Assembly (NCBI RefSeq): GCF_030453185.1
Contig: NZ_JAKDKW010000009.1
Location: 1 to 51,080 of the forward strand
DNA from: Yaniella sp.
GTDB taxonomy: Bacteria > Actinomycetota > Actinomycetes > Actinomycetales > Micrococcaceae
Direction of reading: 5' to 3'
Length of the DNA stretch: 51,080 nt
A model generated the notes under the pieces. The model saw only the letters and a program-made list of their open reading frames with translations, was not told the DNA's origin and did no database searches. The position numbers and the translations under genes were made by a program. Shown piece by piece: positions 1,141 through 38,084 of the stretch; position 1 is the stretch's first letter; every line of letters begins with the position of its first letter.

Positions 1141-2457
1141 CTAGTCGTTGAGGTTGGATCCCTTCGACTCTTCGGAGGATTTTCCGTTAGTGTCAGGGGC
1201 CAAGACAGGCCCGTCTGTAGTGACGATTTTTTGCGAGGTTACGGCTGGAATACCTCGGTGATTCGCGTCTTCGAGCCGGGTTTCGTGTGCGATTCGAATG
1301 ATGGCAGACCATTGGTCTTTGTGCTTAATGAGTTCCTCGAGATAGCGGTGTTCGGTTGCTTCCGCTTGCTGAGTCCAATAGTCCATCTTCTCTGCAGCTT
1401 CCTTGCGTTCCTCTACGGAGGTATCCTCGGCGAGCTGTGAGTAACGGTGTGCAAACTTCTCGGCGTTTTGCAGCGCACGAAGTGCCTTACCGCGAGGACT
1501 TGCGAGCGACCAGACGATGGTGAGTATCAGGATCCCAATGATGACCAACAGGGACATGCCCGTGGACGGCTCAGCGACTGGAACGTCCTGACCGTCATAG
1601 ATGAATGGCAGGTTGTTCTGGCTCAGTGCGTGCAGCATGAGCTTGACGCCGATAAAGCCAAGAATCGCAGCCAGGCCGTAACCGAGGTAGACCAGACGGT
1701 CCAATAGGCCATCGATCAAGAAGTACAGCTGGCGTAGACCCAGCAGCGCAAAGGCGTTTGCCGTAAAGACGATATATGGCTCTTGCGTCAGTCCATAGAT
1801 GGCGGGGATGGAGTCGATTGCGAAAATGATATCGGTGGCGCCGATAGCAACCATGACCAAGAGCATCGGTGTGACCAGGCGCTTACCGTCAACTTTAGTG
1901 ATGAGTTTATCGCCATCGTATTGTTCTGAAACCGGCAAGATCTTCCGGGCGAAGCGAACCATGAAGTTGTCGGCTTCGGAGCCTGCTTCATCCGCCGAAG
2001 AAAACTCGGATTTCAGTTGCTGACCGGCAAGTATCAGTAGGAAAATACCGAAAATGTAGAATGCGTCGGTCCAGACTTCAAGAATCGCTGCGCCGGCGAG
2101 AATAAAGATCGTCCGGCTGATCAGAGCGAAGGCGATACCGAAGAGCAGCACCTTTTGTTGATACTGCCGCGGCACATTGAAGCTCGTCAAAATGATCATA
2201 AAGACGAACAGGTTATCTACCGATAATGCCTTTTCAGTAATGAAGCCCGCATAATATTCAATAGCGTGGTCGGTATCCCCGAAGGCAAAGAAAACTAAAC
2301 CAAATGCCAGGGCAATGCCGACATAAATTGCCGACCAAAGTGCTGCCTCTTTGAGCGTGGGGATATGAGCTTTTCTTACGTGGAAGAAATAGTCGAAGAG
2401 GATGAGGCCGATGATCACAGCAATTGTGATGCCCCAGGTTACACCGGTGATCTCCAT
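1141..2457 (-). CDS. TerC-family integral membrane protein (probable metal exporter)
   Basis: A 438-residue polytopic membrane protein with the TerC signature. The paired acidic motifs are LSVDNLFVFM (D81-N82) and DIIFAIDSIPA (D209, D215), which in this family are thought to line a metal-transport site. Membrane segments cover roughly residues 8-30, 40-60, 70-95, 103-125, 133-147, 197-220, 228-250, 258-278 and 300-320. After residue 320 comes an unusually long charged cytosolic tail of about 118 residues, partly coiled-coil-like (SVEERKEAAEKMDYW), ending in a Ser/Glu-rich stretch. Several TerC relatives export Mn2+ or help load metalloenzymes; tellurite resistance is the historical name only. 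The leader at 2494-2601 resembles a Mn2+ riboswitch, which supports a manganese role. GGAAGGA upstream of the ATG at 2457 is the ribosome binding site. Confidence 0.88.
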   Translation of the reverse strand: MEITGVTWGITIAVIIGLILFDYFFHVRKAHIPTLKEAALWSAIYVGIALAFGLVFFAFGDTDHAIEYYAGFITEKALSVDNLFVFMIILTSFNVPRQYQQKVLLFGIAFALISRTIFILAGAAILEVWTDAFYIFGIFLLILAGQQLKSEFSSADEAGSEADNFMVRFARKILPVSEQYDGDKLITKVDGKRLVTPMLLVMVAIGATDIIFAIDSIPAIYGLTQEPYIVFTANAFALLGLRQLYFLIDGLLDRLVYLGYGLAAILGFIGVKLMLHALSQNNLPFIYDGQDVPVAEPSTGMSLLVIIGILILTIVWSLASPRGKALRALQNAEKFAHRYSQLAEDTSVEERKEAAEKMDYWTQQAEATEHRYLEELIKHKDQWSAIIRIAHETRLEDANHRGIPAVTSQKIVTTDGPVLAPDTNGKSSEESKGSNLND

Positions 2458-2493
2458 ATGAAGGGAGTCCTTCCTAATTTTAGGTAACTTCTA

Positions 2494-2601
2494 GCCCACA
2501 AGTCTCTCCCCCGACGTTTACAACGGGGCCCGCATCCGGCCGAACAGCGATGTTCGACGTGCTGACGTCTGCGGAACTTCTGGGATACTCCCTTGTTCGG
2601 C
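2494..2601 (-). promoter_or_regulatory. candidate yybP-ykoY (Mn2+) riboswitch in the terC leader
   Basis: The minus-strand leader folds into a closed multi-helix element. A closing stem is formed by GCCGAACAAG (2601-2592) with CTTGTGGGC (2502-2494): five plus three pairs with a small internal loop. The closing stem is followed at once by GGGAGTAtccc, which resembles the conserved GGGGAGUA loop of yybP-ykoY RNAs. Inside are GACGT-cagc-ACGTC (2569-2556), CGAACA-tcgc-TGTTCG (2556-2541) and CCCCG/CGGGG (2528-2509). The CGTCAGCACG core also resembles the family. yybP-ykoY elements sense Mn2+ and commonly precede terC genes. The call rests on motif memory and context; a covariance-model search was not run. 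How the element would switch expression is not clear from the sequence. Confidence 0.6.
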
Positions 2602-2673
2602 ATTGACTATATCAGCAATGCGGCGCTGGTAAAGACTCCTCTTGAGACGTGGGGGCAAGCGCGCCAGGGTCGT

Positions 2674-4818
2674 TTATGCGTGGCCCTCGCGTTGCATATC
2701 GCGAAGCTCTTTTTTGAGCTCGTGGACTTCGTCACGCAGCCGTGCGGCGAGCTCGAAGTTGAGATCGATGGCTGCTTGGTGCATCTGATCTGACATTTGC
2801 TGAATGAGATCCGTGAGATCCTTCGCCGGCACTGCCGCCAGTTTGGCAACCTTACCGTCTTCCGAAGCCATGTTCGCTTGCTGCTGTTCTTCGGTAATGG
2901 TGGCTGTGTAACCGCGATTGCCCATGCCGTAGTCGAAGCCAGTTTTAATGCCGGCCATCCCGGACATCAAATCCTGCGTGTCTGCGTCTTCACGTGCGAG
3001 CTGATCAGTAATATCAGCAATCTTCTTCCGCAATGGTTGCGGATCAATGCCGTGCTTCTTATTGTGCGCAATTTGTATTTCACGACGACGGTTCGTCTCG
3101 TCAATGGCAAATTCCATGGAGGCTGTGACCTTATCCGCATACATGTGGACTTCGCCCGATACGTTACGAGCTGCACGACCGATGGTCTGAATGAGCGACC
3201 GGTTTGATCGGAGGAAGCCCTCTTTATCGGCATCCAGAATCGATACGAGCGAGACTTCTGGCAGGTCCAACCCTTCACGGAGGAGGTTAATACCTACTAG
3301 TACGTCAAAGACACCTTTGCGGAGTTCGGTCATGAGCTCAACGCGTCGGAGGGTGTCGACATCGGAGTGGAGGTACTGGACTTTGACACCGTGTTCCACC
3401 AAATATTCGGTGAGGTCCTCGGCCATGCGTTTAGTTAACGTGGTCACCAGGACGCGCTCGTTGCGTTCGACGCGCAGGTTGATTTCGTCCATGAGGTCGT
3501 CAATTTGTCCTTTGGTTTCTTTGACGACGATCTGCGGGTCAAGGAGACCGGTCGGACGAATAATTTGCTCCACTACCCCATCGGCTTGTGACAGTTCATA
3601 GGGGCCCGGGGTGGCGGACATATAGACGGTCTGACCGATGCGTTCCAGGAACTCGTCCCATTTCAGGGGACGGTTATCCAAAGCGGAGGGCAATCGGAAC
3701 CCGTGGTCCACGAGGGTGCGCTTTCGCGAGGCGTCGCCCTCGTACATCCCGCCAATTTGTGGAACAGTAACGTGTGATTCGTCGATCACCAGCAGAAAAT
3801 CATCCGGGAAATAGTCGATCAGTGTGTGCGGGGCGGAACCTTGAGACCGCCCGTCAATATGACGTGAGTAGTTTTCAATGCCATTGCAGTAGCCCATCTG
3901 CTGCATCATTTCTAAGTCGTACGTGGTGCGCATACGTAGGCGCTGGGCTTCCAGGAGCTTGTCCTGGGATTCAAGTTCGGCAAGCCGTACCCGCAGCTCG
4001 TCTTCGATATCTTTGATGGCGCGAGTCATACGCTCGTCACCGGCAACGTAGTGCGAGGCAGGGAAGATATACATTTCTTCCTCTTCTCGAACGATGTGAC
4101 CGGTGAGCGGGTGCAGTGTTTGGATGGAGTCAATCTCATCGCCGAAGAATTCGATGCGTACGGCTAATTCCTCGTACATCGGAATGATTTCGACAGTATC
4201 ACCGCGGACGCGGAAGGTGCCCCGGTGGAAGTCAGCGTCGTTACGGGCATATTGCATCTGCACGAATTGGCGTAGCAGGTCATCGCGGTCCATGAGATCG
4301 CCGACTTTCACGGTCACCATTTGAGCGATGTATTCCTCGGGGGTACCCAAACCGAAGATTGAGGAAACGGTGGCGACGACCAGCGTGTCGCGACGGGTCA
4401 GAAGTGCGTTAGTAGCCGAGTGGCGGAGGCGTTCGACTTCTTCGTTGATGGAGGAGTCTTTTTCGATGAACGTATCGGTCTGCGGTACGTACGCCTCAGG
4501 CTGGTAGTAGTCGTAGTACGAGACGAAGTATTCGATGGCGTTGTTGGGCAGCAGGTCTCGGAATTCGTTGGCCAACTGTGCGGCGAGGGTCTTGTTTTGC
4601 ACCAGCACGAGTGTGGGACGCTGCAAGCGTTCCACCAACCAGGCCGCCGTGGCAGATTTACCGGTACCGGTGGCACCCATCAGCACCACATCTTTTTCCC
4701 CGCCGTCAACCCGCTCGGCGAGTTCAGCAATAGCCTGGGGCTGATCCCCGGCAGGTTCGTAGGGGGCCTCTACCTTAAAGGGCGCAACAACACGGTTAAT
4801 CTCTCGGGCCATACTCAT
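2674..4818 (-). CDS. uvrB: UvrABC excision nuclease subunit B
   Basis: UvrB is the damage-verifying helicase of nucleotide excision repair. It receives lesions from UvrA and recruits UvrC. From the ATG at 4818 the protein has 714 residues, normal for the family. Walker A is GATGTGKS at residues 48-55. The beta-hairpin that clamps DNA is recognisable in [19 protein letters not shown] near residue 95. The DEAD-like motif is [10 protein letters not shown], and helicase motifs VI region QTIGRAARN is present. The C-terminal UVR motif ([20 protein letters not shown]) that binds UvrC is intact. Starts are possible at 4827, 4818 and 4812; 4818 is chosen because TAACAT lies seven bases upstream, giving a leaderless transcript. 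A LexA-box-like dyad overlaps the -35. Confidence 0.97.
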
Positions 4819-4825
4819 GACCCAC

Positions 4826-4862
4826 ATGTTACGCCTGTCGGAATGGCGTGACCACCTGTTCG
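4826..4862 (-). promoter_or_regulatory. uvrB promoter with overlapping LexA-box-like dyad
   Basis: On the minus strand TGGTCA (4854-4849) and TAACAT (4831-4826) are separated by 17 bases, and the -10 ends seven bases before the ATG at 4818. CGAACAGGTGGTCA (4862-4849) overlaps the -35. It matches the actinobacterial/Bacillus SOS box CGAAC-N4-GTTCG except for GGTC in place of GTTC and the last base. SOS control is an inference. Confidence 0.45.
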
Positions 4863-19952: not shown

Positions 19953-20034
19953 TACCCGAAGTGGGACTCGAACCCACACATCTCTCGATATTGCATTTTG
20001 AGTGCAACGCGTCTACCAATTCCGCCATTCGGGC
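19953..20034 (-). tRNA. tRNA-Leu(CAA)
   Basis: A class II tRNA of 82 bases. Acceptor strands GCCCGAA and TTCGGGT pair (one G-U), with discriminator A and no encoded CCA. The anticodon stem TTGCA/TGCAA encloses CTCAAAA, giving anticodon CAA for UUG codons. A variable arm (TATCGAGAGATG) and the T loop GTTCGAGTC are present. Confidence 0.96.
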
Positions 20035-37677: not shown

Positions 37678-37751
37678 GCGGATGTAGCTCAGCTGGCTAG
37701 AGCACCACCTTGCCAAGGTGGGGGTCGCGGGTTCGAATCCCGTCATCCGCT
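37678..37751 (+). tRNA. tRNA-Gly(GCC), copy 1
   Basis: Acceptor GCGGATG pairs with CATCCGC and the discriminator is T. The anticodon loop is TTGCCAA in the CCACC/GGTGG stem, giving GCC. The T loop is TTCGAAT. The gene is 74 bases and identical to the copy at 38011. CCA is not encoded. Confidence 0.97.
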
Positions 37752-37765
37752 CGCAACACCCTCAG

Positions 37766-37836
37766 GGTGGGGTGGCCGAGTGGTGAGGCAGCGGCCTGCA
37801 AAGCCGCGTACGCGGGTTCGATTCCCGTCCCCACCT
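37766..37836 (+). tRNA. tRNA-Cys(GCA)
   Basis: Acceptor GGTGGGG pairs with CCCCACC, discriminator T. The anticodon stem CGGCC-tgcaaa-type loop gives GCA. The gene is 71 bases. Confidence 0.96.
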
Positions 37837-37914
37837 CGATCGGATTTCCGAGGTAGCAGCAAAGCTGGTACCGTAGGAATCTGCAAGTCTTGAGTTTCAG
37901 ATAATGGAACACAA

Positions 37915-37988
37915 GCGCGATTGGCGCAGTTGGTTAGCGCGCTTCCCCGACACGGAAGAGGTCACTGGTTCGAGTCCAGTATCGCGCA
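37915..37988 (+). tRNA. tRNA-Val(GAC)
   Basis: Acceptor GCGCGAT pairs with ATCGCGC, discriminator A. The anticodon stem CTTCC/GGAAG encloses CCGACAC, anticodon GAC. The T loop is TTCGAGT. Length 74 bases. Confidence 0.96.
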
Positions 37989-38010
37989 CAGAATTACGAA
38001 GGTAATTCAC

Positions 38011-38084
38011 GCGGATGTAGCTCAGCTGGCTAGAGCACCACCTTGCCAAGGTGGGGGTCGCGGGTTCGAATCCCGTCATCCGCT
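38011..38084 (+). tRNA. tRNA-Gly(GCC), copy 2
   Basis: Base-for-base identical to the tRNA at 37678. It closes the cluster and is followed by a terminator 11 bases later. Confidence 0.97.

Follow-up and report, generated by a model that had tools for sequence, protein, structure and literature searches.

A predicted alx-like yybP-ykoY manganese riboswitch without P2 in the terC leader of Yaniella sp.

The leader of terC in Yaniella sp. very probably carries an Mn2+-sensing yybP-ykoY riboswitch, in the form seen in the Escherichia coli alx leader, that turns the gene on at the level of translation. The predicted aptamer, located by the refined covariance model R2 and by homology, is alx-like, lacks P2 and occupies positions 2494-2601 on the minus strand of the window, the 51,080-nt stretch of contig NZ_JAKDKW010000009.1 analysed here. 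Its assignment to the yybP-ykoY (Mn2+) class is, from sequence, almost certain, given its homology to the alx and mntP leaders of E. coli, its L1 and L3 loops and its partner genes, and the element adds another example of this already known Mn2+ riboswitch class. The element would tie the TerC proteins of these bacteria to manganese.

The terC locus and its promoter

The gene below the element (1141-2457, minus strand) encodes a protein of 438 AA residues, identified as TerC from its reading frame and a PF03741 match (E 3.7e-47), as the earlier note had named it. The NCBI subfamily profile TIGR03718, 'R_switched_Alx', gave 348 bits against a cut-off of 246.4, and E. coli Alx aligned with the protein across 323 columns. 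It is the sole TerC detected in the source genome, which is 97% complete. Among named records, those closest to this TerC comprise three from Yaniella, one from Enteractinococcus and one from another member of the Micrococcaceae. On the same strand, uvrB (2674-4827) lies 5' of terC, and the gap between the two genes holds a sigma70-type promoter and the structured RNA element of about 108 nt. The promoter (2606-2633, minus strand) consists of TTTACC (2633-2628), a 16-nt spacer and TATAGT (2611-2606) preceded by TG; one site of this kind was found, compared with 0.2 expected in shuffled sequences. Nine bases separate its -10 box from the ACAAG strand of P1. The predicted transcript start, near 2600, lies at the foot of P1, and the outermost GCC pairs of the element may therefore be transcribed only in part. 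A TANNNT hexamer ending 3-12 nt 5' of P1 was present in 69 of 90 actinobacterial elements, compared with 16 of 969 positions further upstream, suggesting that the element as a rule begins the transcript.

Two genes upstream of terC, the window contains a gene of the Na/Ca-exchanger family (PF01699; 4878-6071, minus strand), whose product is ChaA-like yet scores under the NCBI cut-offs, and the R2 scan detected no riboswitch element before it. The tRNA genes of the window comprise a cluster of four at 37678-38084 (plus strand), two of them with identical scores, and a single gene at 19953-20034 (minus strand).

Architecture, conservation and class of the element

All parts of the element are given here on the minus strand. 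The outermost possible closing pairs, GCC (2601-2599) with GGC (2496-2494), fit the coordinates 2494-2601 and would extend P1, which is formed by ACAAG (2592-2596) and CUUGU (2498-2502). L1 is made up of GGGAGUA (2586-2592), the first G of which pairs within P1, and GAGA (2506-2503) on the 3' side, so that the window element contains the L1 GGGGAGUA with a 3' side ending in GAGAC and closed by P1. The sequence, closing GCC/GGC pairs, P1 and GGGAGUA that had been described in the earlier note are thus confirmed at this place. P1.2 pairs UCC (2583-2585) with GGA (2509-2507) and is followed by a junction strand of 8 nt (2575-2582) at the position of the P2 hairpin, which is absent. P3.1 is formed by CCGCAGAC (2567-2574) and GGAUGCGG (2537-2530), with G-A mismatches at two of the eight positions in the window, and leads through L3, GUCAGCAC (2559-2566), into P3.2, formed by GUCGAACA (2551-2558) and UGUUCGGC (2546-2539). 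P4 pairs CCCG (2524-2527) with CGGG (2513-2510).

Folding energy was discarded as proof of a structured RNA, as the MFE of -41.5 is ordinary (z -1.10, with 23 of 200 shuffles folding equally well), and the case for a structure beyond chance rests on comparative evidence. Two covariance models were used: R1, built from 11 exclusively actinobacterial sequences without proteobacteria, and R2, refined from 66 actinobacterial matches, with alx and mntP outside the training set. R1 had matches in 69 genomes out of 248 sampled from the order and in 32 out of 296 sampled from the class, and R2 in 70 out of 296 sampled from the phylum; these draws, and that of the 59 relatives considered below, differ and overlap. 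The leader was matched in 9/9 same-genus genomes, its own included. Within the window, R2 gave the element as its sole match at E 10 or better across the 51 kb, with a score of 93.1 bits (E 1.5e-24) that has to be read with the element itself being part of the model.

In the alignment of 66 CM-aligned sequences from 65 sources, which is structure-fitted and whose shuffles ignore relatedness, changes on both sides were observed in 27 of 28 pairs (515 cells) with 91.5% of cells paired, a combination reached in 0/500 shuffles, and slid registers collapsed. Such changes were found in 4/5 pairs of P1 (98.2% paired), 3/3 of P1.2 (99.5%), 8/8 of P3.1 (89.8%), 8/8 of P3.2 (89.6%) and 4/4 of P4 (83.5%). 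With 11 sequences aligned by MAFFT and no fitting to the structure, P1 and P1.2 are invariant and both-side changes were still seen in 8/28 pairs (0/500 shuffles as high), with no excess of further pair types over the shuffles of this alignment (293/500). RNAalifold recovered P1, P1.2 and P3.2 unaided from 25 unfitted MAFFT rows, P3.1 and P4 not being recovered from these rows. A new set of 26 fetched rows, in which L077 repeats L056, plus E. coli alx showed both-side changes in 23/28 pairs; alignment A4 excludes L098, which has no exact GGGAGUA. The loci studied are the best-scoring matches fetched and not a random draw. The five helices P1, P1.2, P3.1, P3.2 and P4 are thus supported, in agreement with the five helices, closing stem included, put forward in the earlier note, and compensatory changes among relatives, which that note had set as the test of the stems, proved abundant. 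A GC-rich fold arising by chance, with a loop that only resembles that of the class, would account for the ordinary folding energy and for the silence of Rfam described below, and is nonetheless a negligible prospect in view of the covariation in 27/28 pairs, the homology to alx detected by R2 and the constant position of the element before exporters.

With filters off, the R2 scores were 51.7 bits (E 1.6e-13) for the alx leader of E. coli and 26.1 bits (E 3.5e-6) for its mntP leader, the top two matches within the two loci, and those of R1 were 21.4 bits (E 1.7e-4) and 13.0 bits (E 0.036), respectively. With default filters R2 matched alx again, and mntP was not listed at E 0.01. Both leaders are reported Mn-sensing yybP-ykoY riboswitches (PMC9603457), and these matches, together with the loops and partner genes, uphold the class membership suggested in the earlier note. 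That note had also called for a search with the Rfam model RF00080, which had the opposite outcome: Rfam 15 assigned the window element to no RNA family, even at E 10, and RF00080 gave no match up to E 10, leaving its gathering score of 45 bits unreached. However, RF00080 in Rfam 15 gave no match to E. coli alx either and scored mntP at 41.6 bits, under the cut-off of 45, so that its miss here reflects a limit of the model and is no refutation. Among 14 control genomes RF00080 matched in four, above the cut-off in two; among the 59 relatives it passed the cut-off in none, with one match below it, and a search of 20 relatives up to E 1 returned one partial match (L015, 22.9 bits). Since R1 and R2 match frequently in actinobacterial genomes where RF00080 passes in 0/59, a lack of RF00080 match carries little information in Actinomycetota. 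Actinobacterial leaders of this class are already in print, as a yybP-ykoY element was reported for Corynebacterium pseudotuberculosis at 49.16 bits (PMC3890534), two such motifs were listed in a small-RNA survey of C. glutamicum (PMC4046766) and a 2013 study described yybP-ykoY as one of the widely distributed motifs (PMC3766115).

The loops that carry the metal site are conserved. Among 92 distinct aligned elements, comprising 91 actinobacterial ones and E. coli alx, GGGAGUA is present in 91, alx included, and CGUCA-NNN-CG occurs in L3 of 86, again with alx among them. In the crystallised aptamers, L1 is described as extruding a conserved A10, with Mn2+ bound via N7 of an invariable L3 adenosine, which is A41 in the context UCA41AUUC in Lactococcus lactis (PMC6754395). 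L3 of the window reads UCA-GCAC at 2565-2559, and by the matching drawn here A2563 would correspond to L. lactis A41, the putative N7 ligand of Mn2+. Nearly all TerC-linked elements have the L3 CGUCA-NNN-CG. Of the four linked to UPF0016 (L068, L070, L015 and L099), three carry the mntP-type L3 GUCRACAYACU and the remaining one a near variant of it; the type of L3 may track the partner gene.

The crystallised aptamers are four-way junctions (PMC6754395). P2 and the four-way junction are absent from the window element, whose 8-nt strand leaves no room for a hairpin, and they were treated as non-defining because alx likewise has no room for P2. As judged from the model-fitted alignments A3 and A4, the junction strand measures 5-11 nt in 65 of 66 A3 rows (19 nt in the remaining one) and 5-8 nt in 27/27 A4 rows, E. 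coli alx included. By its sequence, the window element is accordingly of the alx form, with a predicted three-way junction, which raises the question of how the docked Mn2+ site forms without P2.

The genes that follow the element in relatives are mostly transporters. Among 91 distinct actinobacterial elements, 73 precede TerC, four UPF0016, seven P-type ATPases and two Na/Ca exchangers, giving a cation/Mn2+ transport partner in 86 of the 91, and three of the other five lie at contig ends. In the first 66 elements, for which partners were counted by tblastn, there were 60 TerC, three UPF0016 and three with neither (one at a contig end), and the 25 further distinct elements added 13 TerC, one UPF0016, seven P-type cation ATPases, two Na/Ca exchangers and two contig ends. 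The main types of Mn efflux system are reported to include UPF0016 and P-type ATPases, with TerC proteins joining in Mn detoxification, although the role of TerC in Mn homeostasis is termed controversial in the same source (PMC13274385), which also reports that in Vibrio parahaemolyticus Mn induces a terC gene below such an element and that this TerC effluxes Mn.

These partners bear on whether the leader kept the yybP-ykoY fold and came to respond to a different cue, for instance pH or a divalent metal other than Mn2+. The alx leader is reported to respond also to alkaline pH (PMC9603457), and some of the relatives' elements stand before Na/Ca exchangers or P-type cation ATPases, as would suit such a change of signal. 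However, almost no variation is seen in L1 and in the CGUCA of L3, where the Mn2+ site lies, and the UPF0016 and TerC partners are reported in Mn efflux (PMC13274385), which makes another signal very improbable.

Several loci are worth recording for their own sake. In L086 and L089 the element stands before a Na/Ca exchanger, and these exchangers may, for that reason, move manganese. In L024 the element occurs twice, at 1501-1604 and 2664-2766 (minus strand), some 1.16 kb apart and each time directly 5' of a terC copy. In L067 (1501-1601, plus strand; R1 41.5 bits) the element precedes a reading frame of 293 AA residues with no Pfam match, possibly a manganese-related gene of a new kind or a wrong frame. 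L072 (1501-1611, plus strand) has a weaker R1 match of 38.5 bits with neither TerC nor UPF0016 downstream, and a tRNA match just upstream of the element (1363-1441).

Expression platform and proposed mechanism

The conserved structured RNA ends 36-40 nt before the AUG. The spacer from the end of the model to the start codon has a median of 36 nt (range 24-90) over 63 elements, the start codons of the relatives being chosen by rule as those nearest to a 35-nt spacer and some perhaps wrong (193 nt in L088), and it measures 40 nt in the window. The Shine-Dalgarno sequence AGGAAGGA (2468-2475, minus strand), recognised by sequence, is identical in 9/9 same-genus leaders, and ACUCCCUU (2461-2468, minus strand), located between it and the AUG, shows complementarity to AAGGGAGU (2594-2587) of P1/L1. 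No terminator-like site was found on the coding strand in 2380-2720; the two sites detected there are both on the opposite strand, in line with the earlier observation that no clear terminator precedes the start.

Among relatives, complementarity between the P1 3' strand and the Shine-Dalgarno region exceeds that obtained with exchanged partners. The first test, covering the 60 loci before TerC among the 66 A3 elements (27 clusters), gave a cluster mean of -12.7 kcal/mol, compared with -9.7 kcal/mol (sd 0.49) for exchanged partners (0/2000), and a further 12 distinct loci from actinobacteria, a set from which the duplicate L077 (= L056) and alx were excluded, gave -16.3 vs -14.8 (sd 0.61; 48/5000). 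When P1 and P1.2 were enforced, the start region was predicted to become more accessible, the gain exceeding 0.05 in 49 of the 60 loci and amounting to 0.15 in the window. By cluster, the mean gain was 0.161 as against 0.101 with exchanged spacers, two of 139 draws being as high, although exchanged spacers by themselves yield most of the gain. Translational control that is ON with Mn2+ is therefore likely, on the strength of the short spacer without a terminator and the anti-Shine-Dalgarno complementarity in relatives, which bear out the guess at translation in the earlier note.

The same Mn2+ aptamer could instead act on transcription, with termination either by Rho or at a terminator within terC, and control by both Rho and the riboswitch is reported for E. 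coli mntP (PMC11647493). However, the coding strand around the leader is devoid of intrinsic-terminator-like sites, the spacer is short, and the complementarity to the Shine-Dalgarno exceeds that of exchanged partners in relatives, so that a transcriptional switch appears unlikely and control at translation is preferred.

In the window, pairing of the P1 3' strand with the Shine-Dalgarno is weak (-4.2 kcal/mol), as it is in the genus, so that the platform seen in relatives cannot simply be carried over to Yaniella. The duplex of ACUCCCUU (2468-2461) with AAGGGAGU (2594-2587) is predicted at -12.9 kcal/mol, a value reached only by terC's own start region among 217 start regions, these being crude longest-ORF starts of at least 200 aa taken from the window and from 20 stretches of its 156-contig genome. 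When folded without constraints, the window leader has this pairing in its MFE structure, with the P1 3' strand lying on the junction strand, and pairing of the same type appears in the MFE of five of nine same-genus leaders and is absent in four. The exchange test of the P1-5'/L1 strand against the spacer was not significant (473/2000), being a weak test because L1 hardly varies. With tertiary contacts left aside, the predicted ensemble energy of the alternative fold (-60.9) lies about 8 kcal/mol below that of the aptamer (-52.8). These models leave AAGGGAGU/ACUCCCUU as the Mn-free pairing in Yaniella at even chances. The inverted repeat GAAGG-ACUC-CCUUC at the Shine-Dalgarno could form a competing local hairpin that conceals the Shine-Dalgarno whichever state the switch is in, which makes the direction of the switch less sure.

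In the proposed mechanism, Mn2+ at high concentration would bind between L1 and L3 and lock P1, leaving the region from the Shine-Dalgarno to the AUG free so that TerC, a probable Mn2+ exporter, would be made; an excess of manganese would probably thus yield more exporter. Stabilisation by Mn2+ of P1.1 as the switch helix is reported for the class (PMC6754395). At low Mn2+, P1 would open, and in many relatives its freed 3' strand would cover the Shine-Dalgarno. In Yaniella, the bases masked at low Mn2+ may instead be ACUCCCUU, immediately 5' of the AUG, through pairing with AAGGGAGU of P1/L1, while the P1 3' strand pairs with the junction strand CCCAGAAGU. On balance, we lean towards one joint reading, in which an alx-like Mn2+ aptamer without P2 and with a three-way junction is widespread in Actinomycetota and wired to translation, the Shine-Dalgarno region competing with the P1 5' strand for the P1 3' strand; Yaniella would have rewired this platform so that P1/L1 masks the bases before the AUG, and the whole branch would be invisible to the current Rfam model.

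Comparison with known systems

The leader of C. glutamicum cg2157 (terC) scored 49.13 bits with an older Rfam RF00080, and its 5' UTR was seen by RNA-seq (PMC3890552); it shares with the window element the RF00080-class leader before terC, a likeness drawn from the published description. C. glutamicum is one of the 14 control genomes and falls outside the four with an Rfam 15 RF00080 match, under stricter filters. E. coli mntP and the crystallised aptamers of L. lactis and Xanthomonas oryzae (RF00080) share with the window element both L1 and the L3 sensing adenosine, and in mntP the helices P1, P1.2, P3 and P4 follow in identical order. Unlike the window element, the L. lactis and X. oryzae aptamers are four-way junctions (PMC6754395), and mntP has a 10-nt junction insertion, its P2, and the L3 GUCAACAUACU. 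The alx leader of E. coli differs from the window element in a long P4 insertion and in the length of the spacer before the start codon, 81 nt as against 40 nt. It shares with it L1 GGGAGUA, L3 CGUCA-NN-ACG, the GAGAC 3' side and the 8-nt junction strand without P2, it is matched by R2 at 51.7 bits, and the Alx protein is 36% identical to the TerC encoded below the Yaniella element.
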